This document shows, piece by piece, positions 1-22,179 of a stretch of 64,000 nucleotides of DNA. This DNA comes from Allolobophora icterica (lineage: Eukaryota; Annelida; Clitellata; Crassiclitellata; Lumbricidae). Position numbers and translations under genes: made by a program. Position 1 is the first letter of the stretch; each line of letters starts with the position of its first letter. Location of the stretch: assembly GCA_963556255.1 (NCBI GenBank), contig OY744610.1, forward strand, positions 17,016,457 to 17,080,456, written 5' to 3'. The notes under the pieces are model-generated. The model saw only the letters and a list, made by a program, of their open reading frames with translations. It ran no database searches and was not told the origin of the DNA.

Positions 1-669
1 AGGTTTATCGGTCATGTGGTTGGGTCTGGTAAGATAAAGATGAATCCAGACAGAATTGAAAGTTTGACTAATTTGAAGATCCCAGAAACTAAGAAGCAAG
101 TTAAGCAACTGCTTGGATTTTTTAATTATTACAGACAGTTTATTAAGGACTTTGCACAGATTGCGAAACCTTTATCTGATTTAACTAGTAAACGTGTTTC
201 TGATAAGATTGATTGGACTGTTGAACATCAGCAAGCATTTGATTTACTTAAAGAGGCTGTGCGATCCAAAGTAGTGTTATATGTTTTTGAAGTGGGAAAA
301 CCATTCAATTTGTACTGCGATAGTAGTGACTTTGCAGTCGGTGCTGTTTTAACACAGATGGACGACAAGGGAATAGAACGCCCTGTGTCATTTATCAGTC
401 AAAAATTAACTGATACCCAGAAGAGATGGGCTACTGTGGAAAAGGAAGCCTATGCTATTGTTTGGGCTCTAAACAAGTTAAAAGAAATTATAATTGGATC
501 AAAAATTTTCATTTTTACTGATCACAATCCTCTTACATATTTGACTGAGTCAATGTCTAAGTCTGCTAAACTTGTGCGTTGGGCGTTAGCCTTACAAACT
601 TTTGATGTTGAGGTGAAGTACAAGAAGGGCAGATTGAATATTATTGCTGATTGTTTGTCAAGGTTATAA
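1..669 (+). CDS. Gmr1-like retrotransposon copy C: RT end and RNase H (5' truncated by window edge)
   Basis: The frame is open from the first base and stops at 669, so the reading frame enters from outside the window. It encodes the end of the reverse transcriptase (thumb/connection) and the whole RNase H domain of a Ty3/gypsy-type element. RNase H acidic residues are visible in YCDSSDFAVGAV, EKEAYAIVWAL, TDHNPL and IADCLSRL. Over the shared stretch the protein is identical to copy A, while several silent bases differ (for example around 170) and agree with copy B. RT-RNase H copies the element RNA into cDNA inside virus-like particles. A 3' untranslated tail, polypurine tract and LTR follow. 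The rest of copy C is not in the window, so its intactness is unknown. Confidence 0.9.
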   Translation, partial: RFIGHVVGSGKIKMNPDRIESLTNLKIPETKKQVKQLLGFFNYYRQFIKDFAQIAKPLSDLTSKRVSDKIDWTVEHQQAFDLLKEAVRSKVVLYVFEVGKPFNLYCDSSDFAVGAVLTQMDDKGIERPVSFISQKLTDTQKRWATVEKEAYAIVWALNKLKEIIIGSKIFIFTDHNPLTYLTESMSKSAKLVRWALALQTFDVEVKYKKGRLNIIADCLSRL

Positions 670-765
670 GTAATCGTAAGACTGTTTATTAATTAGTTAG
701 ATATATATATGTTTCATGTATTTTGGTAATTTCGCAAATTTTGAAATTTAATTTGCTCAATTCCA

Positions 766-780
766 GAAAAAGGAAGGAGG
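766..780 (+). promoter_or_regulatory. Polypurine tract of copy C
   Basis: A run of A and G sits 3 bases before the LTR start (TGTGAACTG at 784). In LTR retrotransposons this RNase H-resistant purine run primes plus-strand DNA. The same run is found beside the 3' LTRs of copies A and B. Bases 670-765 are untranslated tail. Confidence 0.8.
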
Positions 781-783
781 TAA

Positions 784-1251
784 TGTGAACTGAGTTTTGT
801 GTACAGTCTTGTAGTGCGAGATATTTAGCGTATATATTAAGTGCGCTTACTTTAGTTTCACGTGTATATGTATATATGATAGATGTATAACGTTTAGTCT
901 TAGTGACACGCGCGGCCGGCCGATATCGGCAGCGGCGCGCTATATGTATATTATTAGAGTTCGTTTATGCGCACAGAAGACAGGTGTGTCAAGGGGCGCG
1001 AAGAATTATGCTGACTAGAAAAGTTTGAATTCGAAGGTGTTCGCTGTAGTAGTGTGGCTGACTAGTTGAGTTGTAATCGAATTGAGTTCTGTCTGTTTGT
1101 TTCTTATTAAACTAAAGGATATTAAACTGTGTTGCTGATTAGTTCAGGTTATACTTATACGTAGAATTAGTGTTCAAAAGGTGAACGTTAAATAGGCGTT
1201 AAGTACGAAGAGAACAAGGATTTAATCAGAAGGATTGTCAACGGAAGGATT
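784..1251 (+). mobile_element. 3' LTR of copy C, U5 end trimmed
   Basis: The LTR begins TGTGAACTGAG immediately after the polypurine tract. It lacks the last 9 bases expected from other copies (GGGTTGACA) and abuts the U5 end of copy A in inverted orientation. Its U3 variant (GCCGATATCGGCAGCGG near 920) matches copy B rather than copy A, so two LTR subtypes are present in this cluster. No polyadenylation signal was confidently assigned. Confidence 0.85.
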
Positions 1252-1281
1252 CAACCCAATCCTTCCGTTGACAATCCTTCT
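1228..1281. repeat. U5-U5 tail-to-tail junction with perfect hairpin
   Basis: The two oppositely oriented LTR ends meet here. The sequence ending GGAAGGATT (to 1,251), six bases CAACCC, then AATCCTTCC forms a perfect inverted repeat of at least 24 bp per arm with a 6-nt loop. The larger inverted repeat (1-1,251 against about 1,258-2,524) is imperfect, with scattered substitutions and indels, so the two sides are distinct element copies and not a simple sequencing fold-back. Confidence 0.85.
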
Positions 1282-1735
1282 GATTAAATCCTTGTTCTCT
1301 TCGTACTTAACGCCTATTTAACGTTCACCTTTTGAACACTAATTCTACGTATAAGTATAACCTGAATTAATCAGCAACACAGTTTAATATCTTTTCAGTT
1401 TAATAAGAAACAAACAGACAGAACTCAATTCGATTACAACTCAACTAGTCAGCCACACTACTACAGCGAACACACTCGAATTCAAACTTCTCCAGTCAGC
1501 ATAATTCTTCGCGCCTCTTGACACACCTGTCTTCTGTGCGCATAAGCGAACTCTAATAATATACATATAGGCCTAGCGCGCCCCTGCCGAGATCGGCCGG
1601 CCACGCGTGTCACTAAGTACAACTAAACGTTATACATCTATCATATATACATATACACGTGAAACTAAAGTAAGCGCACTAAATATATACGCTAATATCT
1701 CGCACTGCAAGACTGTACACAAAACTCAGTTCACA
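1252..1735 (-). mobile_element. 3' LTR of copy A
   Basis: On the minus strand this reads TGTGAACTGAG (from 1,735) to GGGTTG, losing the final ACA. It is nearly identical to the LTR at 7,681-8,164, including the diagnostic TAGGCCTAGCGCGCCCCTGC segment near 1,568. The near identity of the pair indicates a young element. A matching polypurine tract lies at 1,739-1,753. Confidence 0.9.
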
Positions 1736-1738
1736 TTA

Positions 1739-1753
1739 CCTCCTTCCTTTTTC
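1739..1753 (-). promoter_or_regulatory. Polypurine tract of copy A
   Basis: On the minus strand a purine run (GAAAAAGGAAGGAGG) lies 3 bases from the LTR start. It is the expected plus-strand primer site. Bases 1,754-1,853 are the 3' untranslated tail of the RT-RNase H frame. Confidence 0.8.
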
Positions 1754-1853
1754 TGGAATTGAGCAAATTAAATTTCAAAATTTGCGATATTACCAAAATA
1801 CATGAAACATATATATATATATCTAACTAATTAATGAACAGTCTTACGATTAC

Positions 1854-3359
1854 TTATAACCTTGACAAACAATCAGCAATAATATTCAATCTGCCCTTCT
1901 TGTACTTCACCTCAACATCAAAAGTTTGTAAGGCTAACGCCCAACGCACAAGTTTAGCAGACTTAGACATTGACTCAGTCAAATATGTAAGAGGATTGTG
2001 ATCAGTAAAAATGAAAATTTTTGATCCAATTATAATTTCTTTTAACTTGTTTAGAGCCCAAACAATAGCATAGGCTTCCTTTTCCACAGTAGCCCATCTC
2101 TTCTGGGTATCAGTTAACTTCTGACTGATAAATGACACAGGGCGCTCTATTCCCTTGTCGTCCATCTGTGTTAAAACAGCACCGACTGCAAAGTCACTAC
2201 TATCGCAGTACAAATTGAATGGTTTTCCCACTTCAAAAACATATAACACTACTTTGGATCGCACAGCCTCTTTAAGTAAATCAAATGCTTGCTGATGTTC
2301 AACAGTCCAATCAATCTTATCAGAAACACGTTTACTAGTTAAATCAGATAGCGGTTTCGCAATCTGTGCAAAGTCCTTAATAAACTGTCTGTAATAATTA
2401 AAAAATCCAAGCAGTTGCTTAACTTGCTTCTTAGTTTCTGGGATCTTCAAATTAGTCAAACTTTCAATTCTGTCTGGATTCATCTTTATCTTACCAGACC
2501 CAACCACATGACCGATAAACCTTACCTCACTCTTACCAAATATGCATTTTTTCAAATTCAAAGTAACGTTATGCAATCTCATTTGCATCAAAAATGCATC
2601 TAGATGCTGCAAGTGAACTTTCCAACTGTCAGAATGCACAGCAATGTCATCAACATACGGTTCTGCAAAGTCACTTATAGGCTGTAAAACTAAATTTATC
2701 GCCTTAACAAAAGTTCGGCCTGAATTTATCATTCCAAAAGGAACACGAGTAAATTCATACAGTCCATTATGTGTTACAAAAGCTGTCTTCCATTGATCAG
2801 ATTGTTTTACAGGACAAGTCCAATAAGCACTTCGACAGTCCAAAATAGAAATCACATTAGACTTTCCAACTTTGTTCAAAACGTCTCTGACAATCGGCAT
2901 CGGATATTTACAATCCACTGTGAATGAGTTAATGTATCTGTAGTCACAGGCAAGTCTTAAAGAACCGTCTTTCTTTTTAACAATAACCAAAGGACTTGCC
3001 ATTCTGCTCGATGATGGTTTAATAATGTTTGTTTTTAACATTTCTTTGATCTGACGTTCCACTTCTGCTCGATAAATCAAAGGAATTCGATATGCTGCAA
3101 ATTCCTTTTCACGAAATCCTGGTTTTAGTTCAATTTCATGTTCAACCAATGTACATAATCCGGGTTTTTCTGAAAATCTGTCACAGTATTTGTTCAAAAC
3201 GTTCAACAACTGTTCTTGCTGAGTTACTGTCAAATGGCTAATTTGTTCAGGATCGAGGTTAAGTGAATTCTTGTCATCTTGAACCTCATTCCTCATTGGT
3301 AATTCAACCACTGAACCAAAATCTTCATCTTCTTCAACGATTAGACCACAACTTAATGC
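1854..3359 (-). CDS. pol: Copy A reverse transcriptase-RNase H
   Basis: Reverse transcriptase and RNase H of a Ty3/gypsy-type element. From 3,311 downward the frame is 485 residues. RT shows the KKKDGSLRLACDYRYIN and YVDD (about residue 217) motifs. RNase H acidic residues lie near 368 (YCDSSD), 410 (KEAYAIV), 437 (TDHNPL) and 480 (IADCLS). All look intact. The frame is open from directly after a UGA at 3,360-3,362 and is in the same frame as the upstream gag-PR-IN. The first ATG is about 22 codons inside (3,296; position 3,311 is GTG). This fits UGA read-through rather than independent initiation, although a single nonsense mutation is equally possible. RT lies after integrase, the copia-like order known for Gmr1-group elements. 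Confidence 0.92.
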   Translation of the reverse strand, partial: ALSCGLIVEEDEDFGSVVELPMRNEVQDDKNSLNLDPEQISHLTVTQQEQLLNVLNKYCDRFSEKPGLCTLVEHEIELKPGFREKEFAAYRIPLIYRAEVERQIKEMLKTNIIKPSSSRMASPLVIVKKKDGSLRLACDYRYINSFTVDCKYPMPIVRDVLNKVGKSNVISILDCRSAYWTCPVKQSDQWKTAFVTHNGLYEFTRVPFGMINSGRTFVKAINLVLQPISDFAEPYVDDIAVHSDSWKVHLQHLDAFLMQMRLHNVTLNLKKCIFGKSEVRFIGHVVGSGKIKMNPDRIESLTNLKIPETKKQVKQLLGFFNYYRQFIKDFAQIAKPLSDLTSKRVSDKIDWTVEHQQAFDLLKEAVRSKVVLYVFEVGKPFNLYCDSSDFAVGAVLTQMDDKGIERPVSFISQKLTDTQKRWATVEKEAYAIVWALNKLKEIIIGSKIFIFTDHNPLTYLTESMSKSAKLVRWALALQTFDVEVKYKKGRLNIIADCLSRL

Positions 3360-6300
3360 TCAAGTAACATATTTTCTGATCTTGTTGGCGTGAATTATTT
3401 TTCGACCATTTTCACCCATATCGACTAAATAAGAGTACTTTGATCTTCGATGTATGATCGTACATGGACCATGCCATCGAGAAATAAGTTTGTTCGTTGA
3501 CGTTGGATACAAAACTATGACTTTCTCACCAGCTTCAAATTCTTTGTGCTTTGCTCTCTTGTTATACTGATTCGTGTATTGTAATTGCTTTTCTCGAGAG
3601 TAGGATTCTGCAAACAATAATGCTTTCTCCATATTTTCTTTGAGTTCTTTCAAATACTTTTCTGGTTTAACTCCAACATGAGGTGGTAAGTTTATTTCTC
3701 TAGTCCAACTCTCTTTTAATATTGCCAATGGTCCTCTCGGAATTTTCCCATAGACAAGCATATATGGTGATACTCCAGTAGTTGCATTCGGCACTTCTCG
3801 TAATGCCCACACTGTGAAAGGAATTATCTTGTGCCATTTCCTCGGGTTGTCTATTATCACATGATGGATCATCTTTTTAAATGTCTGATTCCATCTCTCT
3901 ACTAATCCAGCAGCTTCTGGGTGTCCTGGTGTGTCGAATCGTGGACTACAGCCCATTAAATCGAGAAATTCTCTTGTCAAACTGGCTGTGAAGTTCGTTC
4001 CTTGATCACTGGTGATCACGGACGGCACACCAACGTTCATGAACAGTTCCATCAACGCTTCACACACAGCCTTCGCTGTCAACGATTTCAATAAAAAGAT
4101 TGTAGGCCATCTGGTGCACGAGTCCACAATGCATAAACAATACTTGTGACCTGCAGCAGATACTGGATCGATCGGGCCAACGAGGTCCATCGTCATTCTC
4201 CTGAAGGCGACCTCTTCTCTTGAGACTGGAGTGATGGGCACTCTATCCATCACCAGACTCCTTGCCTTTAATTGACACTTCTCACAAGACTTACAAAATT
4301 TCACAATGTCTCTTCTCATCTTTGGCCATACAAAAGACAACTTTATTCGTTCTCTTGTTTTCTCTTCTCCTAGATGTCCTCCAAATACCGATTCATGCGC
4401 CAATTCCATCACTTTAATTCGTCTCTCTTTTGGTAACACTAGTTGATATATCGTCTGGTCTAATATCTGATATTTCTTATGCAATAAACCGTTGATCACA
4501 CAGAATTCAGATTCTTTCTCTTGTGCTAACTTCCACCACGGCTTCAACGATTCATTCTTTCTCTGTTGCTCTTCGAACTTCCTCGAATCGGCAATCTGCA
4601 CCTTTTGTTCTTCGTCCATTTCTTCATCTCTATACAAGTCTCCTATTCCCACATCACATTCATTGTCTTCTTCAGTTTCATTTAATGTGCCATTCTCGCA
4701 TGCAGCCATCTCTTGCTCGTTCATCTCTGCTGTTACACCATCTCGCGATAAGCTTCGTTGCTTATTACTTTCGTTTTCCTCATCACTTGAACTTTCAGTT
4801 TCACTCTTCTCATCAACATCTACCATTTCCTGTTTCCGACTCTGCGCTCTCGTCATTACATTTGCTCGTACACTCACATCTCCTTGTATCGTTTTAACTT
4901 TCATCTGTGGTACGGCTTTTAATTCGGCAATTATCTCTGGATGCAACAAGAATCTTTCTGTACTGCCCATCTTTGCAATACTAGCACACATCAAGGTGAC
5001 ATAAGGTGTAAGTGAACATTGGATTTTACGCGGAAATCCCTCTTCTTCCACGTCACTACCACACAGTCTAACATCGACTTTCACTAACTTCGCAGGAATG
5101 GCATCTCCTGCCACACATTGCAAATTCACTTTTCCAATTTGTTCCACCTTCATGCCTTCCAGTAATTTTTCACTAATCACCGGAATCTCTGCACCCGAGT
5201 CGCTCAGTGCTTTGACTTTCACTGGCTCTTTACCGTCTACTGCACGAATTTCAACCTCGACATATTGCAAGAACGATTTCTTCAATATTCGACTGTCATC
5301 TTTTCCTATGACTTCTCTCTGAATTTCAGCATCCAATAGAATTTCTTTTTGAATACCACATTTCATTACTGACTTTACTTCAGTCTCTTGGTTTTCTTGA
5401 CTCGCGGTTTGATTATCTGTATCACTAACCACTTGAATCAAATTCACCCTTGTGTGTTCTTGATTTCTGCTAGAACTAGCTGCTGCCACTGGAACTGGAC
5501 AAAATTTAACCAAATGTTTGTCTGAACCACAGTTGTGACAACGCTTCACAACCATGCCTCGTTGTTCATTTCCTTCATTTCTCTTATACTGCGTAAACGA
5601 TGTGTTGCCTTCCCTCTTGGCAAACGGCGCTGACGATTTGTTAAATCCCTGACGACCAAACGTCACTTCTCTGGTCTCATTGGGTACAGGGACACTAGCC
5701 TTGACTTCTTTACCAATAAACTGACTCCCTGTTTCTGGATTACTTTTCCACTTTCCACTCTGGCTTTGGTTTACGGAACGTTGAGAAGGATAACTGTTTA
5801 TATTTGGGACCGCAAACCCAATTCGATTGTTTACATGAATGTCTGCTAGGTCTGCCACTGCACTAGCTTGGAGACAGTCAGTTCCTTCCTTCGACAATAC
5901 AAACTGTAGTGGACCTGGCGGTAAACATTCTTTTAGCTTATCCGCTACCAGCAAATCAAAGAGCGTATCATACTCTCTGTTCACGTTTCGACTTCTCACG
6001 TAATAGTTTAGCAAGTTCTTCAGTCTTGCCGTAAACATCGTATAAGTCTCTTCTGTTGTCTTCTTAGCATCCACAAATCTGGCTCTGTATTCTCTCGAAG
6101 TCAATTTAAATTCTTTTAATAAGTGCTGCTTGACTCTATCATAATTGTCTAGATCATCGTATGACAATCTATTCAGAACGGTTCGAGCTTTCGGCGTCAT
6201 CAATGGTAGTAATAATTTCACCCAAAACGGCTTTTCCACAGCAAAACTACGAAACGCGTTCTCGACTGTTTCAAAATATAATGGCACCTCCATCATATCA

Positions 6301-7058
6301 GTTGGCATTTGAGGCAATACATGCTTCATTGCATCACCTATTTTCTTAATTTTTGACACCAAAGTTTCACTTTCTTGCTGTTTCCTTCTTTCTGCTTCCC
6401 GTTCTTCTCTCATTTGTGTTTCTTTCAATGTCAATTTTGATTTCTCTAGTTTCAGACGTTCCTGTCTTTCTGCCTCTGCCTTTTCCAAACTTTCTTTCTG
6501 AAATTTGAGTTCTTCTTGTCTGATCTGTTCGGCGCGTTCTAACTCTAACGTTCGCGCTTTTTCTTTTTCTTCTTCACGCATTCTCTTTGCTTCAATCTGT
6601 TGCTGACGAACCTCTTCATCACTTTTTCTAGCTTTTTCAAATTCAATCATCTGCTCCAATCTTCTTCTTTCAGCATCTTCCCTATCTCTTTCCAACTGTT
6701 CTAACTGAATCTCAAACTGATTCTTTTGCAATTCAAGTTCTGCCTTACGCACTTGTTCTGCTTTATCTTCTCTCTCTCTTTGCAGACGCAATTCCTCTTG
6801 CCTTGCAAGTTCCGCTTTCTCTTCTTTCTCTCTCTGCAGACGTTCTACTTTCTCTTCTTTCTCTCTCTGCAAGCGCAATTCGTCTTGTCTTACACGTTCT
6901 GCTTCTTGTCTCAGCTCTTTCTCTTCCTGTCTTCGTCTATCCTCTCTTTCTTTCTCTTCTTGTCTCCGTTTATCTTCTCTTTCTTTCTCTTCTTGTCTAC
7001 GTTTCTCCTCTCTATCTTCTTTCATCATCATCCACTGCATCAACATCTCCATAGACAT
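3360..7058 (-). CDS. gag-pol: Copy A Gag-protease-integrase polyprotein
   Basis: A frame of 1,232 residues counted from 7,058. Residues 1-250 are a highly charged Lys/Glu/Arg/Gln coiled coil. The Gag core follows (about 245-400). A CX2CX4HX4C zinc knuckle (CHNCGSDKHLVKFC) lies near 505. An aspartic protease DSGAE motif is near 620. An acidic linker follows. The integrase has an H-H-C-C zinc domain (HESVFGGH and CKSCEKC, about 886-922) and a DX59DX35E core (D near 956, D in TSDQGTNF near 1,016, E in GLVERWNQ near 1,052). All catalytic residues look present. It ends at UGA and the RT-RNase H frame continues in register. Integrase before RT is the copia-like arrangement; the RT family is gypsy-like. 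A further N-terminal Gag piece lies upstream in another frame. Confidence 0.93.
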   Translation of the reverse strand: MSMEMLMQWMMMKEDREEKRRQEEKEREDKRRQEEKEREDRRRQEEKELRQEAERVRQDELRLQREKEEKVERLQREKEEKAELARQEELRLQREREDKAEQVRKAELELQKNQFEIQLEQLERDREDAERRRLEQMIEFEKARKSDEEVRQQQIEAKRMREEEKEKARTLELERAEQIRQEELKFQKESLEKAEAERQERLKLEKSKLTLKETQMREEREAERRKQQESETLVSKIKKIGDAMKHVLPQMPTDMMEVPLYFETVENAFRSFAVEKPFWVKLLLPLMTPKARTVLNRLSYDDLDNYDRVKQHLLKEFKLTSREYRARFVDAKKTTEETYTMFTARLKNLLNYYVRSRNVNREYDTLFDLLVADKLKECLPPGPLQFVLSKEGTDCLQASAVADLADIHVNNRIGFAVPNINSYPSQRSVNQSQSGKWKSNPETGSQFIGKEVKASVPVPNETREVTFGRQGFNKSSAPFAKREGNTSFTQYKRNEGNEQRGMVVKRCHNCGSDKHLVKFCPVPVAAASSSRNQEHTRVNLIQVVSDTDNQTASQENQETEVKSVMKCGIQKEILLDAEIQREVIGKDDSRILKKSFLQYVEVEIRAVDGKEPVKVKALSDSGAEIPVISEKLLEGMKVEQIGKVNLQCVAGDAIPAKLVKVDVRLCGSDVEEEGFPRKIQCSLTPYVTLMCASIAKMGSTERFLLHPEIIAELKAVPQMKVKTIQGDVSVRANVMTRAQSRKQEMVDVDEKSETESSSDEENESNKQRSLSRDGVTAEMNEQEMAACENGTLNETEEDNECDVGIGDLYRDEEMDEEQKVQIADSRKFEEQQRKNESLKPWWKLAQEKESEFCVINGLLHKKYQILDQTIYQLVLPKERRIKVMELAHESVFGGHLGEEKTRERIKLSFVWPKMRRDIVKFCKSCEKCQLKARSLVMDRVPITPVSREEVAFRRMTMDLVGPIDPVSAAGHKYCLCIVDSCTRWPTIFLLKSLTAKAVCEALMELFMNVGVPSVITSDQGTNFTASLTREFLDLMGCSPRFDTPGHPEAAGLVERWNQTFKKMIHHVIIDNPRKWHKIIPFTVWALREVPNATTGVSPYMLVYGKIPRGPLAILKESWTREINLPPHVGVKPEKYLKELKENMEKALLFAESYSREKQLQYTNQYNKRAKHKEFEAGEKVIVLYPTSTNKLISRWHGPCTIIHRRSKYSYLVDMGENGRKIIHANKIRKYVT

Positions 7059-7087
7059 AGGCGCAGGTGGTTTTTCAATAGCCTTTT

Positions 7088-7282
7088 CTACGGCACCGCC
7101 AACGGCACCTTTTCTTCGACTTCTTCTTTAACCCACACATCGGCGAGTTCCTGCATCATGTCACCACGTGACATACCTTCTAATTGTTCTTCTTTAAAAC
7201 CGGCTTTCAACAAACGCTGTTTTAGCCTTTCCGTAGACATCTTCTTAATATCTGCTTGTCTTTCAGCACTTAGTTTCTCCAT
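7088..7282 (-). pseudogene. Copy A Gag N-terminal piece, out of frame
   Basis: A 64-codon frame starting with ATG at 7,282 is rich in charged residues (MEKLSAERQADIKKMSTERL, then LLKAGF and GMSRGDMMQELADVW) and resembles the helical start of Gag. It ends in TAG about 30 bases before the first ATG of the large Gag frame, which is open through this region in a different phase. A one-base indel near 7,098-7,110 (A-rich run before GGTGCC) would explain the break; programmed frameshifting is an alternative, but no classic slippery heptamer was recognised. Copy B is truncated before this point, so no internal control exists. Confidence 0.6.
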
Positions 7283-7667
7283 CTTACTTGTTTACTTTGG
7301 TGATTTCTCTTTTCAAAGAAGTCACGGTTTTTCTTGTTGTGTGAATCGATAAACAAACGGGATTTCTTTTATATTTGTTCGTGGAAAACAACGAAATTTT
7401 TATACCGTTTCTCGTGTTCCACCGTCGTTGATATCGTAAACACGTCACACAGCAACAACGCGTAGATTCTTTTAACACCGTCGTAGATTCTTCTAACACC
7501 GTTGTAAATTCTTTTATCACCGTCGTAGAGTCTTCTATCCGCCGAAGGAGGTGATAACGTGAATTTTAATCCACCGTGAGTTTATATCCACCGTGAGTAT
7601 TTATTCCACCGTGAGTATTTATTCCACACCGTAGCTGTTCCACCGTGAGTTTTTATCCACACCGTAA
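7283..7667 (-). repeat. Copy A 5' leader with short tandem repeats
   Basis: The untranslated leader between PBS and Gag. On the plus strand, 7,565-7,665 contains four to five imperfect copies of a roughly 20 bp unit (CCACCGTGAG followed by TTTATAT or TATTTATT), and 7,460-7,545 contains copies of a TAGATTCTT(T/C)TAACACCGTCG unit. No gene is seen. Leaders of this type often hold packaging signals, but nothing here shows that directly. Confidence 0.65.
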
Positions 7668-7676
7668 CTGCCACCA
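7668..7676 (-). promoter_or_regulatory. Primer binding site complementary to tRNA-Leu 3' end
   Basis: The minus-strand sequence TGGTGGCAG lies 4 bases (TTAT) inside the 5' LTR. It is the exact complement of a tRNA ending CTGCCA plus CCA, as in metazoan tRNA-Leu of the AAG/TAG type. After 9 bases the match becomes imperfect. The primer assignment is supported independently by the tRNA-Leu fragment fused to the neighbouring copy at 8,164-8,201. Confidence 0.75.
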
Positions 7677-7680
7677 ATAA

Positions 7681-8164
7681 TGTCAACCCAATCCTTCCGT
7701 TGACAATCCTTCTGATTAAATCCTTGTTCTCTTCGTACTTAACGCCTATTTAACGTTCACCTTTTGAACACTAATTCTACGTATAAGTATAACCTGAATT
7801 AATCAGCAACACAGTTTAATATCTTTTCAGTTTAATAAGAAACAAACAGACAGAACTCAATTCGATTACAACTCAACTAGTCAGCCACACTACTACAGCG
7901 AACACACTCGAATTCAAACTTCTCCAGTCAGCATAATTCTTCGCGCCTCTTGACACACCTGTCTTCTGTGCGCATAAGCGAACTCTAATAATATACATAT
8001 AGGCCTAGCGCGCCCCTGCCGAGATCGGCCGGCCACGCGTGTCACTAAGTACAACTAAACGTTATACATCTATCATATATACATATACACGTGAAACTAA
8101 AGTAAGCGCACTAAATATATACGCTAATATCTCGCACTGCAAGACTGTACACAAAACTCAGTTC
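7681..8164 (-). mobile_element. 5' LTR of copy A
   Basis: It is nearly identical to the LTR at 1,252-1,735. The U5 end (TGTCAACCC at 7,681 on the plus strand) is complete and adjoins the TTAT linker and PBS. The U3 end lacks only its terminal 3 bases (the plus-strand ACA after CTCAGTTC) before passing into tRNA sequence. It should carry the element promoter, but no TATA box or start site was assigned. Confidence 0.9.
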
Positions 8165-8201
8165 TTCGGGGGCGTGGGTTCGAATCCCACCGCTGCCACC
8201 A
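8164..8201 (+). tRNA. tRNA-Leu 3'-half fragment with CCA, fused between two LTRs
   Basis: The sequence matches the end of the variable arm, the full T-arm (GGTTCGAATCC) and the 3' acceptor strand of tRNA-Leu, and ends in CCA at 8,199-8,201. Animal nuclear tRNA genes do not encode CCA, so the source was mature tRNA. It is followed by the ATAA linker and the U5 end of copy B's 3' LTR, the exact arrangement of a minus-strand cDNA still carrying its primer. It extends well past the usual 18-base PBS and past the T-loop A58 position. It is not a functional tRNA gene because the 5' half is absent. Confidence 0.85.
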
Positions 8202-8205
8202 ATAA

Positions 8206-8682
8206 TGTCAACCCAATTCTTCTGTTGACAATCCTTCTGATTAAATCCTTGTTCTCTTCGTACTTAACGCCTATTTAACGTTCACCTTTTGAACACTAAT
8301 TCTACGTATAAGTATAACCTGAATTAATCAGCAACACAGTTTAATATCTTTTCGTTTAATAAGAAACAAACAGACAGAACTCAATTCGATTACAACTCAA
8401 CTAGTCAGCCACACTACTACAGCGAACACACTCGAATTCAAACTTCTCCAGTCAGCATAATTCTTCGCGCCCCTTGACACACCTGTCTTCTGTGCGCATA
8501 AACGAACTCTACTAATATACATATAGCGCGCCGCTGCCGATATCGGCCGGCCGCGCGTGTCACTAAGACTAAACGTTATACATCTATCATATATACATAT
8601 ACACGTGAAACTAAAGTAAGCGCACTAAATATATACGCTAAATATCTCGCACTGCAAAACTGTACACAAAACACAGTTCACA
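8206..8682 (-). mobile_element. 3' LTR of copy B
   Basis: On the minus strand this is a complete LTR from TGTGAACTG (8,682) to TTGACA (8,206), so neither end is trimmed. Beyond U5 it retains the 4-base TTAT linker and the tRNA copy. Its sequence (GCCGATATCGGCCGGCC near 8,540) belongs to the copy C subtype. A polypurine tract follows at 8,686-8,700 and 3' untranslated tail at 8,701-8,797. Confidence 0.9.
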
Positions 8683-8797
8683 TTACCTCCTTCCTTTTTC
8701 TGGAATTGAGCAAATTAAATTTCAAAATTTGCGAAATTACCAAAATACATGAAACAAATATATATATAACTAATCAATCAAACAGTCTTACGATTAC

Positions 8798-10053
8798 TTA
8801 TAATCTTGACAAACAATCAGCAATAATATTCAATCTGCCCTTCTTGTACTTCACCTCAACATCAAAAGTTTGTAAGGCTAACGCCCAACGCACAAGTTTA
8901 GCAGACTTAGACATTGACTCAGTCAAATATGTAAGAGGATTGTGATCAGTAAAAATGAAAATTTTTGATCCAATTATAATTTCTTTTAACTTGTTTAGAG
9001 CCCAAACAATAGCATAGGCTTCCTTTTCCACAGTAGCCCATCTCTTCTGGGTATCAGTTAACTTCTGACTGATAAATGACACAGGGCGTTCTATTCCCTT
9101 GTCGTCCATCTGTGTTAAAACAGCACCGACAGCAAAGTCACTACTATCGCAGTACAAATTGAATGGTTTTCCCACTTCAAAAACATATAACACTACTTTG
9201 GATCGCACAGCCTCTTTAAGTAAATCAAATGCTTGCTGATGTTCAACAGTCCAATCAATCTTATCAGAAACACGTTTACTAGTTAAATCAGATAAAGGTT
9301 TCGCAATCTGTGCAAAGTCCTTAATAAACTGTCTGTAATAATTAAAAAATCCAAGCAGTTGCTTAACTTGCTTCTTAGTTTCTGGGATCTTCAAATTAGT
9401 CAAACTTTCAATTCTGTCTGGATTCATCTTTATCTTACCAGACCCAACCACATGACCGATAAACCTTACCTCACTCTTACCAAATATGCATTTTTTCAAA
9501 TTCAAAGTAACGTTATGCAATCTCATTTGCATCAAAAATGCATCTAGATGCTGCAAGTGAACTTTCCAACTGTCAGAATGCACAGCAATGTCATCAACAT
9601 ACGGTTCTGCAAAGTCACTTATAGGCTGTAAAACTAAATTTATCGCCTTAACAAAAGTTCGGCCTGAATTTATCATTCCAAAAGGAACACGAGTAAATTC
9701 ATACAGTCCATTATGTGTTACAAAAGCTGTCTTCCATTGATCAGATTGTTTTACAGGACAAGTCCAATAAGCACTTCGACAGTCCAAGATGGAAATCACA
9801 TTAGACTTTCCAACTTTGTTCAAAACGTCTCTGACAATCGGCATCGGATATTTACAATCCACTGTGAATGAGTTAATGTATCTGTAGTCACAGGCAAGTC
9901 TTAAAGATCCGTCTTTCTTTTTAACAATAACCAAAGGACTTGCCATTCTGCTCGATGATGGTTTAATAATGTTTGTTTTTAACATTTCTTTGATCTGGCG
10001 TTCCACTTCTGCTCGATAAATCAAAGGAATTCGATAGGCTGCAAATTCCTTTG
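8798..10053 (-). pseudogene. Copy B RT-RNase H, N-terminally fused to integrase debris
   Basis: About 417 residues match copy A RT-RNase H almost exactly from EFAAYRIPL to the C-terminus, with YVDD and the RNase H acidic residues intact. The N-terminal part of the RT frame is lost. At about 10,042-10,053 the sequence jumps to the integrase C-terminus at a shared CAAATTC(C)TTT stretch, removing roughly 430 bp relative to copy A, including the UGA region. Microhomology at the breakpoint suggests template switching. Copy B could not make a complete polyprotein. Confidence 0.85.
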
Positions 10054-12765
10054 TGCCTTGCTCTCTTGTAATACTGATTTGTGTATTGTAATTGCTTTTC
10101 TTGAGAGTAAAATTCTGCAAACAATAATGCTTTCTCCGTATTTTCTTTGAGTTCTTTCAAATGCTTTTCATGGAAAGGAATTATTTTGTGCCATTTCCTC
10201 GGGTTGTCTATTAGGTCCATTGTCATTCTCTTGAAGGCGACCTCTTCTCTTGAGACTGGAGTGATAGGCACTCTATCCATCACCAGACTCCTTGCCTTTA
10301 ATTGACACTTTTCGCATGACTTACAAAATTTCACAATGTCTCTTCTCATCTTTGGCCATACAAAAGATAATTTTATTCGTTCTCTTGTTTTCTCTTCTCC
10401 TAGATGTCCTCCAAATACCGATTCATGCGCCAATTCCATCACTTTAATTCGTCTCTCTTTTGGTAACACTAGTTGATATATCGTCTGGTCTAATATCTGA
10501 TATTTCTTATGCAATAAACCGTTGATCACACAGAATTCAGATTCTTTCTCTTGTGCTAACTTCCACCACGGCTTCAACGATTCATCCTTACTCTGTTGCT
10601 CTTCGAACTTCTTCGAATCGGCAATCTGCACCTTTTGTTCTTCATCCATTTCTTCATCTCTATACAAGTCTCCTATCCCCACATCACATTCATTGTCTTC
10701 TTCCGTTTCATTTAATGTGCCATTCTCGCATGCAACCATCTCTTGCTCATTCATCTCTGATGTTACACCATCTCGCGATAAGCTTCGTTGCTCATTACTT
10801 TCGTTTTCCTCATTACTGGAACTTTCAGTTTCATTCTTCTCATCAACATCTACCATTTCCTGTTTCCGACTCTGCGCTCTCGTCATTACATTTGCTTGTA
10901 CACTCACATCTCCTTGTATCGTTTTGACCTTCATCTGTGGTACGGCTTTTAATTCGGCAATTATCTCTGGATGCAACAAGAATCTTTCTGTACTGCCCAT
11001 CTTTGCAATACTAGCACACATCAAGGTGACATAAGGTGTAAGTGAACACTGGATTTTACGCGGAAATCCCTCTTCTTCCACGTCACTATCACACAGTCTA
11101 ACATCGACTTTTACTAACTTCGCAGGAATGGCATCTCCTGCCACACATTGCAAATTAACTTTTCCAATTTGTTCCACCTTCATGCCTTCCAGTAATTCCT
11201 CACTAATCACCGGAATTTCTGCACCCGAGTCGCTCAGTGCTTTGACTTTCACTGGCTCTTTACCGTCTACTGCACGAATTTCAACCTCGACATATTGCAA
11301 GAACGATTTCTTCAATATTCGACTGTCATCTTTTCCTATGACTTCTCTCTGAATTTCAGCATCCAATAGAATTTCTTTTTGAATACCACATTTCATTACT
11401 GACTTTACTTCAGTCTCTTGGTTTTCTTGACTCGCGGTTTGATTATCTGTATCACTAACCACTTGAATCAAATTCACCCTTGTGTGTTCTTGATTTCTGC
11501 TAGAACTAGCTGCTGCCACTGGAACTGGACAAAATTTAACCAAATGTTTGTCTGAACCACAGTTGTGACAACGCTTCACCACTGTATGGTATGGTTGTGA
11601 AATACCTCGTTGTTCATTTCCTTCATATCTCTTATACTGCGTAAACGATCTGTTGCCTTCCCTTTTGGCAAACGGCGCTGACGATTTGTTAAATCCCTGA
11701 CGACCAAACGTCTCTTCTCTGGTCTCATTGGGTACAGGGACACTAGCCTTGACTTCTTTACCTTTAAACTGATTCCCTGTTCCTGGATTACTTTTCCACT
11801 TTCCACTCTGGCTTTGGTTTACGGAACGTTGAGAAGGATAACTGTTTATATTTGGGATCGCAAACCCAATTCGATTGTTTACATGAATGTCTGCTAAGTC
11901 TGCCACTGCACTAGCTTGGAGACAGTCAGTTCCTTCCTTCGACAATACAAACTGTAGTGGACCTGGCGGTAAACATTCTTTCAGCTTATCCGCTACCAGC
12001 AAATCAAAGAGCGTATCATACTCTCTGTTCACGTTTCGACTTCTCACGTAATAGTTTAGCAAGTTCTTCAGTCTTGCCGTAAACATCGTATAAGTCTCTT
12101 CTGTCGTCTTCTCAGCATCCACAAATCTGGCTCTGTATTCTCTCGAGGTCAATTTAAATTCTTTTAATAAGTGCTGCTTGACTTTATCGTAATTGTCTAG
12201 ATCATCGAATGACAATCTATTCAGAACAGTTCGAGCTTTCGGCGTCATCAATGGTAGTAATAATTTAACCCAAAACGGCTTCTCCACAGCAAAGCTACGA
12301 AACGCGTTCTCGACTGTTTCAAAATATAATGGCACCTCCATCATATCAGTTGGCATTTGAGGCAATACATGCTTCATTGCATCACCTATTTTCTTAATTT
12401 TTGACACCAAAGTTTCACTTTCTTGCTGCTTCCTTCTTTCTGCTTCCCGTTCTTCTCTCATTTGCGTTTCTTTCAATGTCAATTTTGATTTCTCCAGTTT
12501 CAGACGTTCCTGTCTTTCTGCCTCTGCCTTTTCCAAACTTTCTTTCTGAAATTTGAGTTCTTCTTGTCTTATCTGTTCTGCGCGTTCTAACTCTAACGTT
12601 CGCGCTTTTTCTTTTTCTTCCTCACGTATTCTCTTTGCTTCAATCTGTTGCTGACGAACCTCTTCATCACTTTTTCTAGCTCTTTCAAATTCAATCATCT
12701 GCTCCAGTCTTCTTCTTTCAGCATCTTCCCTATCTCTTTTCAACTGTTCTAACTGAATCTCAAAG
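10054..12765 (-). pseudogene. Copy B Gag-protease-integrase, internally deleted and 5' truncated
   Basis: Compared with copy A it retains part of the coiled coil, the Gag core, zinc knuckle (CHNCGSDKHLVKFC), protease DSGAE and the integrase zinc domain. It has lost two integrase segments: 109 residues starting just after the first catalytic Asp (junction near 10,213), which removes the second Asp and the Glu, and about 50 residues near 10,165-10,175. The frame survives both deletions. It has a 5-residue insertion before the zinc knuckle (ISQPYHT against M). It stops at about 12,765 inside the Gag coiled coil with no leader or 5' LTR, and non-element sequence begins. It is catalytically dead for integration. 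Confidence 0.88.
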
Positions 12766-12956: not shown

Positions 12957-13070
12957 TGAAAATGACGATCATGATTATTATTATTCAGGATTGAAATATC
13001 CATTTAGGATGATGGACTATGCAGGTAAATCGAATGAAGAAATGGCATCCTGGTTCATCACTGGCACGTG
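12957..13070 (+). repeat. 114 bp direct duplicate (first copy)
   Basis: Identical by eye to 13,337-13,450, offset 380 bp. It contains the end of the Asp-rich stretch and the first codons of the Mab-21-like frame (ending at CTGGCACGTG). The sequence then diverges into AAAGTCAACTG. The region between the copies (13,071-13,336) holds GAT-rich low-complexity DNA. Confidence 0.85.
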
Positions 13071-13239: not shown

Positions 13240-15096
13240 ATTAAAAAAACGCTGACGCTGACTATTATGATGACGATTACGATGATCATGGTAATGATGA
13301 AGATGATGACTCAAGTGATAATGGTGATGATGAGGATGAAAATGACGATCATGATTATTATTATTCAGGATTGAAATATCCATTTAGGATGATGGACTAT
13401 GCAGGTAAATCGAATGAAGAAATGGCATCCTGGTTCATCACTGGCACGTGCCAATTGATTCCAAAATCGCTTCCTTTTGTTTCTGATCACATGCATGACA
13501 TATTCATGACACCGATCCCTGTACCAAAAGAGTATTCGATATTGTGTGGCAGCTCTGCGGAGTTTTACATCCGACCGCTGAAAACATGCATCAACGATAC
13601 TGATTTCTTGATATCCAAGGCCGATGAGCTGGCCTGTATTGGCGACTTTCCAGTGTTGCCAAGTGATATAAGTGGCCTAGCAGATACTATCAAGTGCTTT
13701 AAGATTGAACCATACCATAAATATCCAGGTTTTGTTCGATTACGAAGTTTGGGTGCAATGTGCTATAACTGGAAACACAAAAAGTACGAATTTAACCAAA
13801 CAGCTCATCCAGATCTCCACATCGGGCTAAATATAGCCTCCCTTGCAAGTTCATATCTTGTTCAGTCCAGTCGTGACTCGTTTCAATGGTGACAGCGCGT
13901 TTCTAAGCGTTGTTAGTGGTCCAGCAGTTAAATACCAAACAGAATCAAACTTAAGTTTGGCATTTGATATTGTCAGAAGCCTATTTTGCCCTCGGTGTTC
14001 TACGGAAGCCAAAATTGGCCTATTCGACTAAGAAAACACGGATGGCCGACGACTAATACAATTTTTGAGGTTGTAGAAAATGGTTGTCATGTTGTATACA
14101 TTCAGCATCGTTCTAGCAGAGACGATAAAGAACAGTGGAGATTATCATTTTCAGTGGCAGAAGTGATTTTAGTTCAGAGTTGTACTCAAGTTCAGCAGAT
14201 TGTCTATCATTTGCTGAGATTCTTCTGCAAGAGAGAATTGATACAAAAAGATTGTCCAAAGGAGGATGAGGTTCTCTGTACGTATCATATAAAGACGCTG
14301 ATGCTATGGACTTGTGAAGAGATGTCACCTGAATGGTGGAATTCCTCTTCTGTTATTGCGATCTGTTGTGAGTTATTGAAAAAGCTTTCAGAATGACTAA
14401 AGAGGAGATACTGTCCGAACTATTTTATTCCTGAGGCAAATTTATTTCGTGAACCATCGTCCTCGACCATGCGTTTCAATACTGAAAGACGATTAAATGA
14501 ATTCCAACATTCTGATATTCTTTGTCAATGGTTTTTAGAGAATTATATACTGCCAATCATTCGTACACAATTAACATTTTTGAGCGCAAGGAAAGTAGGC
14601 CTACTACCAGACTTCATCGACTATATGCCGACTCTTCTTGAATACCGGAAAGCAAATGAAACAAAATCTTTGGAATTAACGTTTTCTTTCATATTCTCAT
14701 TTTCTAATAAGATGTGTCGTCGCATAAATAAAAATGGGTTAAATTCAGGATTGCGTGGCAGTTTAAACATTAGACAATATACATTATACAACACACCTTA
14801 TTTCGAAAGTACATAGTACAATATACAATCTTCCAGCAACAGAGAAGGTCTTGTGTTTCAAGTACTATGGCATTCTACTGCATATTTTGCATACAGCATA
14901 TGGTTTACGTTACGGAGAGATTTCGTGGAATAGCAGTCTATTTGTGGATTTTGTCAAAGCAATGTCGTTGCAAACAAACATTGCAAGGTCTCAGTATCAT
15001 AACTTTCCGAAAATGTACACAGAACAAAGCAGTCGGTTTCACTTTCTGCGTGCTCAGAATCTCATGCAAAATTTAACTGGATCAAATAGACAGTAA
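13240..15096 (+). pseudogene. Mab-21/cGAS-like pseudogene
   Basis: Homologous along its length to the minus-strand gene at 37,312-40,101. An Asp-rich stretch (13,240-13,360) leads into a frame with the nucleotidyltransferase motif CGSSAEFYIRP plus INDTDF. A frameshift near 13,860-13,885 moves to a frame with the third acidic motif (AFDIVRSLFCPRC). A second shift near 14,000-14,020 leads to the helical half (HGWPTTN, GCHVV, EQWRLSFSVAEVIL, CTYHIKTLMLW, PEWWNSSSV). A TGA at 14,394-14,396 replaces the Trp of the functional paralogue. YFIPEANLF follows, then 14,580-14,816 is divergent. A last homologous piece (CFKYYGILLHILHTAYG to QNLMQNLTGSN) ends at 15,096. Several independent lesions make it a pseudogene. 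Confidence 0.8.
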
Positions 15097-18390: not shown

Positions 18391-19363
18391 TTTCTTTAAT
18401 GACACATACAGTACAGACAATATATATTTCAAAATCTGAATTATTTCTTTGCCTCTGAGAAACAATTACAACTCGTCCCAATCACTTTAACCGGCTTACT
18501 TAGTTGCAATAAGACCAAATACAATACAAGTAACAACAAAACTCAACCCGTTCGTTTTCTGGCCTTACACTTCTCTACTCTTACCTCGTCTTTAATATTT
18601 CGAAACATAGTAGGAATCAACTAGGCCTATGACCTAAATTACGTCAGTTAGGCTATATGACTCATTCTAGCAGCTGCCCTGCTGATCTTACTTAAAACAA
18701 GCGGACTGTCCATCAGGCTAAGCATTCAGCTGCTCATGGTTATTACATGTTTATTCCTGCAATCAGAACTCCGCATTAGTCTTTCTTTCCGTCAATCTCA
18801 TTAGCGTCTGAAGACCAGTTGGGTTGATCCTCGTTTCCGACGTTAGGTCAGGAGCTCCTCTGATTAATATATCTGGAAGACGCGCCATAAAAATCTGTGA
18901 TTGCAATTGCAATGGTAAAACTAGGTGGCTGTCTAAGTGCATAACGGTGCCTAAAATTCCACTATGGGTTAGGAGGGAGGTAGAGGGAGAATGGGGGAAA
19001 GTGGAGATTCTATTAATTCTCGAACAGATTCCTATCGTGATTCCACCTCTTCTGCATATACTTCGTTGCTCAAATTCTACCAATACTTAGATCATGACCT
19101 AATTGTGCGTTCAGCTAAGCGGAAGACCTTCTACTGTTTTTTAAAGTCAGGTGAGATCGCTTGAATAGGCTCTCAAGCGGCATCCTGAGAATAAGATCTC
19201 AATGGAGTTCTATATAAAAAATTGAATATGAAAATACGATGATGCAAAGATGAGTAATAATGAAGCTTACTGACGATGATGTAATAGACATAGAGTAAAG
19301 AAGTAACTTAGTTAATCGAATAGTTAATAGCAACACACAGTGGTCTATATGCAGACTCACATA

Positions 19364-19734
19364 CAGGGGCGTCTATCCTCCCCGAAGTCATTGGAGCAAC
19401 TTCCCCTCCCATCCCTCCTCTTCCCCCTTCCCCTTCCTTCCCCTATCCCCCAATAATGATGGCACATACACTGACAGATCCCCTCCCTACTTTTTAGATG
19501 GAGCAATTGCTCCAAGGTTTCTATGGTGTAGAGTGGCGCATATTTTAACGGATTTGGACTACTGGGACAAAGTTGGTCACGACAATGCATTTTAAAACAT
19601 TTGCTGCCAAATAGAGCTTGTTTTAGCCACTTTACCTTGGACAAAACTACTGGGACAAATCTTAAAACTACTGGGACATTTGTCCCACTAGTTATATAGT
19701 TAAAATATGCACTGCTCGCAGGTGTAGACCCCTG
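19364..19734. mobile_element. hAT-type MITE, 371 bp
   Basis: Ends CAGGGGCGTCTATCC and GGTGTAGACCCCTG are imperfect inverted repeats. An exact 8 bp duplication CTCACATA flanks them (19,356-19,363 and 19,735-19,742). The interior contains repeated CTACTGGGACAAA phrases. The mirror copy lies at 34,637-35,007. Confidence 0.85.
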
Positions 19735-19835
19735 CTCACATACAGCTAAATCAGTCTGGTAAGAAATTATACTGGACTCCACCGGTTTATCAGCGTGGGA
19801 TAGCGCATATTATGACTGAGTAAATTATTATAATT

Positions 19836-19916
19836 CGGTCACCGCACACTTCTATCGCGCTCGCGGAACACTTGTGTGCCGCGGCACATAGGTTGGGAAG
19901 CACTGGCTTAAATTAT
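19836..19916 (-). mobile_element. hAT-like terminal fragment (CAGTGCTTCCCAACC)
   Basis: On the minus strand this begins CAGTGCTTCCCAACCTATG followed by the palindromic GTGCCGCGGCAC, a common hAT-type terminus. The opposite end was not found. The copy at 28,572-28,652 runs straight into the assembly gap and that at 34,464 continues. Confidence 0.5.
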
Positions 19917-20355
19917 TATCGTTGTTCTTCACTGTATAACCGTTGGATAGGTTTACGGATGTACAATGAGTCATAATAACCCTACTATTCAACAGCGTCA
20001 ACTTGTGTCAGTTTTGCTATAGGTAATGTCCGCACTAAAACTAAAGTGTGAAAGTATGGCACATGCGAATCTCCAACAGTTGTAGAGCGCAGCGGACACC
20101 GACCCAGCTGAGTCGAGAGTAGCTTAATCGACGATCGTTTAAAAGTCAAAGTAGTGAAATCGCAAACAGTTGAAGAAATCGAAATCTGTCAGAGAACCCA
20201 GAAAATTGAAACAGAAACATGCAATGACAACGCCTTACAATACTCGCACCCCATGTCTCTACGCGAACATCAACCATCCAGGCACTTCGCTCTATTCCGT
20301 TATCCCGTTATCTAACTCTCTCCCCTCACTGTTCAATCAACCCTTCCGACCCAGC

Positions 20356-20827
20356 CAGTGGCGGCGCCAGGATTACAGGTTTGGAGGGGCTAGAGCCCTA
20401 CGCTGAATATGTAATCGCGCGTGAGCGCGAAAAATTTTTTTGATCTCTTTTTTTGTGCACGAGAAATGCGTTTAAAAAGCAAGGGGCAAGCACTTTGTAA
20501 CGGCATGTATACATTATGCATTTTCATAAAATTGTATAATTACATTCAAACTAATTCAAATCTAAATTTAACTGATTTTTATTAGTTAGCTACTTATTGC
20601 GAAACAATATAAACAGAATTATATGTAAAAAAACTCATTAATTTTTGTTAGTTGCTGGTGACAACGTGTTGACGTGTCAGCTGCCTGGTCTAAGTTATCA
20701 AGTTCCCACTTGGCAGTTATTTAACAAAAGTAGCAATAAAAAAGTATCTTTAAACATCGGGCGACAACTGTATACTGCGTCACCTCACTGTTAAAGGTGG
20801 ACCCCTCCCCCACTATCGCCGCCTCTG
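20356..20827. mobile_element. Repeat element with CAG(T/A)GGCGGCG ends, 472 bp
   Basis: The left end CAGTGGCGGCGCCAGG and right end (read inward) CAGAGGCGGCGATAGTGG are partly matching inverted repeats. No 8 bp target duplication is found (GACCCAGC against AATAAATC). A related copy at 49,497-50,826 shares extra sequence beyond the right end, so this may be part of a larger unit. Mirror copies lie at 27,656-28,127 and 33,544-34,015. Confidence 0.55.
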
Positions 20828-21180
20828 AATAAATCATCAAAATAATCGAGTTTTAGTGACTCCAGTGATTGTACGATATAATCCTGCAGATGATTTACTA
20901 CACCTGTGATCTAAATCAACTCGCAACACGTTCATATATTCGCGAGTTCAACGTAGGCTATATTATTACTCCTATAGATGTACTCAATTGAAGTGTGTGC
21001 CACACACTGACAGTACTGACTGGACAGGTCAGAAATAGGCAAGTGTGGCAAGCAGAGCGATAACACGCACACATACCTACACACACACCTACACACATCT
21101 ACACAAACACACACACAAACACACACACACGTGCAGGTTGCAGCGGAGAACTCTGCCAGTCTAGGCCGCCGTGAGTAGTT

Positions 21181-21400
21181 AACGTATTGAGGTTGACCGT
21201 GCAGTAGATGACATCCAACTGAGGTTGACCGTGCAGTAGATGACATCCAACTGAGGTTGACCGTGCAGTAGATGACGTCCAACTGAGGTTGACCGTGCAG
21301 GCGATAACGTCCAACTGAGGTTGACCGTGCAGTCCATAACGTCCTACTGAGGTTGACAGTGCAATGCCCAAAACCGTACTGAGGTTGACAGTGCACCCCA
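21181..21400. repeat. 32 bp minisatellite, about 6.5 units
   Basis: The unit is approximately GGTTGACCGTGCAGTAGATG followed by ACATCCAACTGA. The three left units are almost identical and the outer ones diverge. Mirror copies lie at about 27,083-27,302 and 32,971-33,190. Frames of 100-154 codons across it are repeat artefacts. A GT-rich stretch (21,065-21,135) adjoins it. Confidence 0.9.
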
Positions 21401-21565
21401 TTCAGAGTAATTCTTTTAATTATATTTATTATAGTTTAATTATATTTTAATATATTTGAACCCTAATTTGTACTCTTACACGATTTAATTATGGGATTGA
21501 AACATTTCAGATGGTGAATAAACCTATTTCATGCAGCAATCTTTAAATATGTTAGATATTTTAAC

Positions 21566-21642
21566 ATGCTACATAGCGTAGTGGTTAGCGTGTTGGACTA
21601 TCAACCCAGAGGTCGGCGGTTCAAATCCCACCAAGGCGGAAA
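21566..21642 (+). mobile_element. tRNA-like SINE head
   Basis: An A-box-like TAGCGTAGTGGTTAGCG and B-box GGTTCAAATCC are spaced as in a tRNA. The anticodon-arm region reads TTGGACTATCAACCCAG. The acceptor ends do not pair, so it is not a functional tRNA gene. No obvious poly-A or short-repeat tail follows. Mirror copies lie at 26,841-26,917 and 32,729-32,805. Confidence 0.5.
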
Positions 21643-22179
21643 ATTTGAATCCAATCTTCTTTTCAACTCCAGTCAACTGACATATGTCGAATATGATTTT
21701 GAGATAGACCATCCCTCATATGCCGAGGCTAAGGAAATGAAGTCGCTATCACTTCATGGACTGCTCTGACAACCGAAATGCTGACGTGTGCACTAAAATT
21801 TTAAATGCAGATTACAAAAAGACGTATGCTATAAACCTAAGATGTGCATGTGCAAATTGAATGAGCATCAAACTTTTGGTTTTCTATATTGCAAAGACAT
21901 GCTGGGTGGACGTGGGACGAAATTTCTACAGTAAAATTATAATTTAGGTTGCTAAAATGGAAGATATAATGATTTGCATGATAAAATGTCAGATGGATTT
22001 GGACGCTCTGATGCTAAAACTACAACTTTCACACTCCTACGGAGTATGAAACATTGACTTGTATGATTAAGTTACAACAATTATTGTGAAACACCGATTC
22101 TTTTGAAGTTTTCTCTATCAACCTTCTGAAGTGTATATTCATAAGATGTTTGAAATACTGAACTATGCAGTAGAATTAC

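Follow-up and report, generated by a model that had tools for sequence, protein, structure and literature searches.

How did part of a mature transfer RNA come to lie between two long terminal repeats (LTRs) in the genome of Allolobophora icterica? In the stretch of DNA analysed here, which is 64,000 nucleotides long and is referred to as the window, a 3' portion of tRNA-Leu(AAG) occupies positions 8163–8201 of the plus strand, with CCA at 8199–8201 and the T-loop A58 at 8183; the piece itself is 37 nt long (8165–8201), or 39 nt when the TC at 8163–8164, common to the LTR of the adjacent retrotransposon copy A, is counted. It is followed by the linker ATAA, which leads from primer to U5 (8202–8205, plus strand), and by the LTR of copy B, which begins TGTCAACCC at 8206. 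On the other side, the U3 end of the copy A 5' LTR lies at 8164, where the first 3 nt of this minus-strand LTR, read here as a final ACA, are absent. Copy A carries the same linker in its own leader (7677–7680) and leaves the tRNA after 9 nt (7668–7676), linker and primer-binding core TTAT-TGGTGGCAG together occupying 7668–7680 on the minus strand, with 9 nt pairing with the tRNA. Since CCAATAATGT is present at just two places in the window, the leader of copy A and the junction, chance is excluded. The initial annotation had seen in this insert a tRNA-Leu 3' piece ending in CCA and had assigned it a primer role; the piece is real, at 37–39 nt, and the 4-nt linker of copy A indeed sits between it and U5. 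The piece also runs beyond A58 and stops in the variable arm, which bears out the further claim that copying passed A58 and exceeded 18 nt.

A pattern search of the host's own genome returned nine places that match the tRNA-Leu pattern, two of which (L101 and L102) were read and were identified as tRNA-Leu(AAG) genes by both ARAGORN and Rfam. Both contain G36 G37 C38 A39 C40 C41 A42 G43, and they differ as isodecoders in T50-A64 versus C50-G64. Alignment to these genes, which had been suggested as a check, revealed that the fragment equals L101 exactly up to the CCA, and the CCA is encoded in neither of these two of the nine places, in keeping with the mature tRNA source claimed earlier. A tRNA gene or a tRNA-derived SINE was rejected as an explanation of the junction on account of the CCA, the element's own linker and the LTR end, the two genes read being without CCA. 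Rfam gave no match at the gathering score across the whole window, and in 8050–8400 three weak matches under that score, one of them tmRNA-like and partial over the tRNA fragment. Among viral contigs, no relative was found by RT protein, and the 22-nt junction pattern had 0 matches.

The junction belongs to an array of three copies of one LTR retrotransposon, which occupy window 1–12764 in the order C, A, tRNA piece, B. Copy A (1251–8164, minus strand) contains a gag-PR-IN frame (3360–7127) and an RT-RH frame (1854–3359), separated by an in-frame stop at 3360–3362, and is bounded by a 5' LTR (7681–8164, minus strand) and a 3' LTR (1251–1735, minus strand) that are identical over 482 nt. The 3' LTR is 2–3 nt short at its U5 end and meets copy C tail-to-tail. 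Copy C is present in part (1–1251, plus strand), as the RT-RH end, the PPT and an LTR without its last 9 nt, and 1 nt at the C-A join is common to both copies. Copy B (8206–12764, minus strand) consists of an LTR, a PPT, the RT-RH region, a shortened integrase region and part of gag; its LTR (8206–8682, minus strand) is a 3' LTR, with PPT and pol beyond it, and no 5' LTR was seen within 8206–12764. Around the A-B-C array, no target duplication was seen. About 190 bp from the truncated end of copy B, beside a Mab-21-like gene, there is an exact 114-bp duplication (12957–13070 and 13337–13450), which is possibly a templated insertion.

The element encodes gag with a protease motif (recognized by eye), an integrase (H2C2, rve), and then RT with RNase H. 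Integrase thus lies upstream of RT in pol, with H2C2/rve in the upstream frame and RT/RNase H in the downstream frame, and in the homologue P0002 the rve family also precedes RVT in the domain listing. Codon differences in the RT-RH region are all synonymous, namely 10/10 between A and B in 418 codons, and 5/5 between A and C and 4/4 between C and B in 223 codons each, suggesting that these differences arose in active lineages and that copies A, B and C look young. The comparison of A with B over the 843 codons of gag and the remainder of that frame gave 38 substitutions in synonymous codons and 26 in nonsynonymous ones. The three pol deletions of copy B recur with all breakpoints at another locus, L038, and its outer breakpoints recur in L029, L040 and L045, with an unlisted 44-nt piece between them; these deletions therefore look inherited, and copy B seems, from its breakpoints, to be part of a subfamily with these four loci that has common integrase-region deletions. 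On the same grounds, we rejected the idea that copy B is a minus strand whose synthesis was aborted and whose deletions are new. Spliced RNA was likewise dismissed as the source of the deletions, as their borders share short sequence and are not GT-AG (by eye).

Several further features were observed elsewhere in the window. A near-perfect inverted repeat (18407–24127 and 30232–35964) has arms of about 5.7 kb that are 99.7% alike and a 217-bp spacer (24127/24344). A gap of 200 N at 28653–28852 looks false, with 22964–28652 repeated as 28853–34540 at 99.9%. The tRNA-like box-B sequence GGTTCAAATCC occurs within the large palindrome at 21590–21640 and 26840–26900 and is perhaps a SINE. A related LTR fragment, about 78% alike, lies at 45339–45592, and at 43297–43776 there is a minisatellite whose repeat of about 78 bp preserves an open frame. 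Open frames are found at 37542–40125, one of which resembles the Mab-21-like gene near 14 kb (74.6% DNA identity, 39117–39606).

We were curious to know whether the junction in the window is a single case. The 86-bp window junction was used as a query, and 40 of 487 candidates were scored, all of which were read. Thirty-five of these loci run past A58, comprising 34 recognized by pattern and L054, which carries two further substitutions and was recognized by eye, and in the remaining five (L056–L060) the tail stops at 18 nt. An exact pattern with positions 58 and 64 free identified 34 places in the genome, the same 34 loci; it demands a full match outside 58 and 64, and mutated tails such as L054 are missed. 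With a nested pattern for a tRNA-derived primer site of at least 18 nt, 830 genome places were obtained, 34 of which (about 4%) continue past A58, while at least one of the other 796, again L054, is a mutated read-through. A separate, non-nested pattern of core plus LTR end gave 1515 genome places, and the first 40 of these in contig order comprised 32 with 9–11 nt, eight with 18 nt and none past A58, implying that over-copied tails are a minority and not the normal leader. That a long primer site forms the usual leader of the family, the finding that the annotation had named as fatal to its reading, was thus rejected at 0/40 sampled primer sites. On the other hand, the genome search that it had proposed for the same type of junction disclosed 34 LTR-linker-tRNA places, the window included, so that the junction is not unique. 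A side observation concerns L055, which belongs to a different LTR family and has this linker and the 47-nt tRNA tail as well.

The lengths of the 35 tails are far from even: 26 measure 46–47 nt, six measure 40–45 nt and three, including that of the window, measure 39 nt, although at many loci the element itself has the final 2–6 bases of the tail ahead of the landing, which makes those ends upper limits. The 26 longest tails end at tRNA nt 38–39, just short of G37, and this end is unambiguous within a base at L006, L008, L010, L025 and L051 only. L015, counted as 43 nt, could instead be a 47-nt tail with one changed base. Within the first 37 positions of the 34 pattern-matched tails, only positions 58 (T>A, seven loci), 64 (T>C, five loci) and 50 (A>G, nine loci) vary. 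Positions 50 and 64 vary as the host isodecoders L101 and L102 do, with the two changes together in L049, L050 and L053 and separate in the others, and we infer from this split a primer site of which the first 18 nt would come from the template and the rest from the tRNA. Position 58, read in the sense of the tRNA, is A in 27 of the 34 tails, T in seven, and G or C in none. When the two extra changes of L054 are included, seven of nine changes unrelated to the isodecoders fall on one position of 37 (binomial 3.6e-10, assuming independent loci). A58 is, to our knowledge, universal in tRNAs, and by this general rule a host tRNA gene with T58 is discounted; the T>A change in the tails is hence best read as misincorporation at m1A58 during read-through.

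Where the tails lead was then compared with the element itself. When the landing is judged from the bases that directly follow the tail, element-sense position 3915 is used by ten loci, 1512 by three and 4258 by two. Position 3915 corresponds to window 4250, and its native counterpart lies in the integrase region of copy A (4241–4260, minus strand), with GAGTCTGGTG at 4260–4251 and the landing from 4250; the wrong junction itself is absent from the window. At this site the element reads GAGTCTGGTG as against GAGACTGGTG in the tail. Mapping placed five loci in the leader region (including L053, which was unconfirmed in the landing-identity scoring) and the others elsewhere, on either strand. 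Of about 13,800 element sites on both strands, 3915 sense and 3933 antisense best fit the last ten bases of the tail (9/10). Landings occur at each of these two, with L010 at the latter. A landing test was carried out on 19 of the 34 loci, about one per landing class, and 16 of these had a confident site, L003, L012 and L053 being the three that had none. Identity to the tail end averaged 4.0 of 8 nt over the 16 confident landings, as against 1.91 at random, and 0 of 20,000 draws reached the observed mean. A stricter test, which omits the last two, possibly common, bases and uses as controls sites ending in the same dinucleotide, yielded 4.27 versus 1.95 for 11 confident landings with 46–47-nt tails (0/50,000). 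L001, L006, L014 and L028 show scant or no match at the landing, and L027, L052 and L055 have no element match after the tail. The last but one base of the tail agrees with the tRNA, and not with copy A at that site, in L008, L010 and L025.

One and the same landing is associated with several tail variants: 3915 has four, 1512 three and 4258 two. When an LTR tree was built from 28 loci, leaving out L003, L016, L020, L026, L052 and L055, seven changes for seven loci were needed for the 3915 landing and five for five for 58A. This tree is weak, with 14 of its 25 inner branches open and long branches for L023 and L019. Shorter tails were observed as well: L071, L072, L079, L080, L083, L085, L091 and L093 have 18-nt tails that stop before A58 and continue into the leader, mostly at CGGTGGATAA-type repeats, which resemble the tail end CGGTGGGAT, with L079 differing. 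Leader repeats of the CGGTGGATAA type may act as landing pads for 18-nt tails.

The genomic setting was inspected by reading 20 of the 33 non-window loci in ten-kilobase stretches. In 15 of the 20, the tail stands behind an LTR that starts in non-element sequence, i.e., a 5' LTR. Both LTR ends were in view in ten copies, nine of which have identical 5-bp flanks, whereas L035 is without target duplication, and the ten LTR pairs differ by 0–4 substitutions in 476–505 nt, with two gaps in L038. The 5-bp duplications together with the near-identical LTR pairs imply that the scorable products, bar one, integrated ordinarily and recently. The copies show the hallmarks of LTR retrotransposons (TG...CA LTRs, PBS, PPT and a short target duplication), the duplication being present in 9/10 scorable tailed copies. 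Tails mostly behind 5' LTRs, target duplications in nine of ten scorable copies and many landing positions are hard to reconcile with a lone fossil; from the annotation's end-joined, unintegrated cDNA there remains the joining of two different cDNAs, and its singularity is lost among 34 genome places. The LTR-tail-LTR arrangement of the window was also found at L002, where the tail has its full 47 nt and the match is 3 nt. A further array occurs at L029, where LTR-tail-LTR-element precedes an inverted copy, in a layout with some likeness to B-A-C in the window. Short U5 ends of about 12–25 nt fused to gag at common short homologies were noted in L030 and L047 (gag 2282) and L043 (2350), and also in L003, L016 and L020; they look like premature first-strand transfer.

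The tail sequences, end points, landing preference and target duplications observed at these loci are, in our opinion, probably the work of plus-strand strong-stop DNA that is extended too far into its primer tRNA and, during second-strand transfer, lands at a wrong site. The plus-strand strong-stop DNA of this Ty3/gypsy element would copy the attached tRNA-Leu primer and usually stop at A58, giving 18 nt, while at about 4% of the tRNA-derived primer sites still present in the genome copying would have passed A58, at times with an A inserted opposite it. Most over-copying would halt directly ahead of G37 (47 nt), and stops at 39–45 nt would be less common. Because the 3' end of the long tail, GAGACTGGTG, fits the leader badly, it would anneal at matching element DNA during second-strand transfer, be it in the integrase region, in gag, in the leader, at the U3 end of another LTR or on the opposite strand. 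Synthesis may then go on from the landing, and the shortened, inverted or concatenated product would be inserted by integrase. We infer that the modifications m1A58 and m1G37 are the stops, that second-strand transfer is the step concerned and that copies A and B shared one particle. In the window, a 37–39-nt tail on the 3' LTR of copy B would have been transferred to copy A at its U3 end, resulting in the head-to-tail order B-LTR-tRNA-LTR-A; compared with the other cases read, this tail is set apart by its 37–39 nt, by only 2 common nt and by its position on a 3' LTR.

An alternative for the window is that ligation, e.g., during double-strand-break repair, joined a linear unintegrated cDNA B with attached tRNA to A at its trimmed U3 end and likewise joined C to A. 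Capture of Ty1 cDNA at yeast double-strand breaks was reportedly described by Moore and Haber in 1996, Teng in 1996, and Yu and Gabriel in 1999. In a further study, 3' LTR ends of Ty1 inserted at yeast breaks often carry extra nucleotides found only in cDNA (40/56 in wild type; PMC10802722). The outer ends of copy A without 2–3 nt, the overlaps of 1–2 nt, the array unaccompanied by any target duplication seen, the tail-to-tail C-A join, the exact 114-bp local duplication about 190 bp from the truncated end of copy B, and L014 with its similar 39-nt join without match all agree with such ligation. L002, however, has the same LTR-tail-LTR layout, its tail being complete at 47 nt and its match 3 nt, and 9/10 scorable tailed copies elsewhere bear target duplications. 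Ligation is hence a possible account that we hold to be clearly the less likely, while for the short-tailed junction of the window, for L014 and for the C-A join, end joining stays a fair rival. An artefact of assembly or library would be highly surprising, as 34 separate places, nine of them with target duplications, would need to be explained and a junction of 2-nt overlap cannot arise from read overlap, even though a scaffold gap with an unmerged contig overlap lies 20 kb off.

The common end of the tails could also reflect the primer instead of a stop. The Drosophila element copia primes with a tRNA fragment, and a primer consisting of the 3' half of a tRNA cleaved in its anticodon loop would make tails end at nt 38, where the primer ends; this precedent and the common end of 26/35 tails at nt 38–39 speak for such a half. 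Nine of the 35 tails nevertheless end at 39–45 nt (of which L015 is perhaps a 47-nt tail with one changed base), the common end lies one base before G37, the stop expected at m1G37, and just 34 of 830 sites of at least 18 nt match through the T loop, which leaves a tRNA half as primer unlikely. Doubtful to a somewhat greater degree is a single ancestral captured 47-nt primer site from which all long tails were inherited through copying and recombination. Such a site is heritable, ten loci have the 3915 landing, and the weak LTR tree leaves room for LTR recombination, so some of the 34 loci may well be related by descent. The many landing classes, the differing isodecoder and position-58 variants at one landing, the seven changes for seven loci that the 3915 landing takes on the weak LTR tree, and L055, with the same tail on a different LTR family, argue against one origin for all.

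A wider reading, for and against which we find the balance about even, is that the genome is a readable record of reverse transcription at tRNA modifications, with a main stop at A58, rare read-through with an A inserted opposite m1A58 and a second stop at m1G37, and that the last ten tail bases choose the landing. On this reading, each event would give rise to a new deletion, inversion or concatemer able to integrate, and the 47-nt primer site may allow non-autonomous multiplication. The 18-nt tail may likewise target the leader tandem repeats CGGTGGAT, in which case second-strand transfer in this family would rest on microhomology at the 3' end more than on a conserved primer site. The mechanism predicts landing sites, the element's two best matches both being used, and it would make testable from the genome alone the modifications of the host primer tRNA and the frequency with which RT passes them, as well as the birth of non-autonomous LTR elements from mis-aimed second-strand transfer. 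Errors of strong-stop synthesis are known from HIV in vitro and in cell culture, whereas here about 35 natural cases, with many different landings and with legible start, stop and landing, are found in one genome. Among the literature matches listed, in a search whose coverage excludes most subscription journals, none surveyed a genome for tRNA read-through at LTR primer sites.

With regard to known systems, integrase upstream of RT marks Gmr1-type Ty3/gypsy elements, as stated in the available text of PMC8220671, and the window element, a putative member of that type, has the same order. Non-classical HERV-K insertions are similar in having truncated copies and junction microhomology, but unlike the copies here they lack target duplications and, in the available part of their description, no tRNA tail is mentioned (PMC3625200). 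Ty1 cDNA at yeast double-strand breaks likewise consists of replication intermediates with extra cDNA-only nucleotides beyond the 3' LTR, yet that study concerns induced breaks and end joining, whereas here 9/10 scorable copies are integrase-type insertions (PMC10802722). Two-LTR junctions of HIV-1 that contain primer-site or tRNA inserts have the same LTR-primer sequence-LTR layout; in the excerpted text these are junctions of unintegrated circles, in contrast to the chromosomal location, many landings and target duplications seen here (PMC5618025). A parallel in mechanism is given by HIV-1 plus-strand strong-stop DNA, whose normal end, according to the available sections of PMC13191261, is m1A58, with a minor product at nt 37 and synthesis extending past A58 when the methyltransferase is mutated. 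HIV-1 products beyond nt 54 are said there to be unusable in the second transfer, so that the use of long tails by microhomology in A. icterica would be an exception (PMC13191261). The two systems seem to have in common the major stop at A58, the read-through and the minor stop at nt 37, and they differ in that the HIV-1 data in those sections come from in vitro and cell culture work, whereas here the products are fixed in a genome and would have gone on to transfer to microhomologous sites (PMC13191261).
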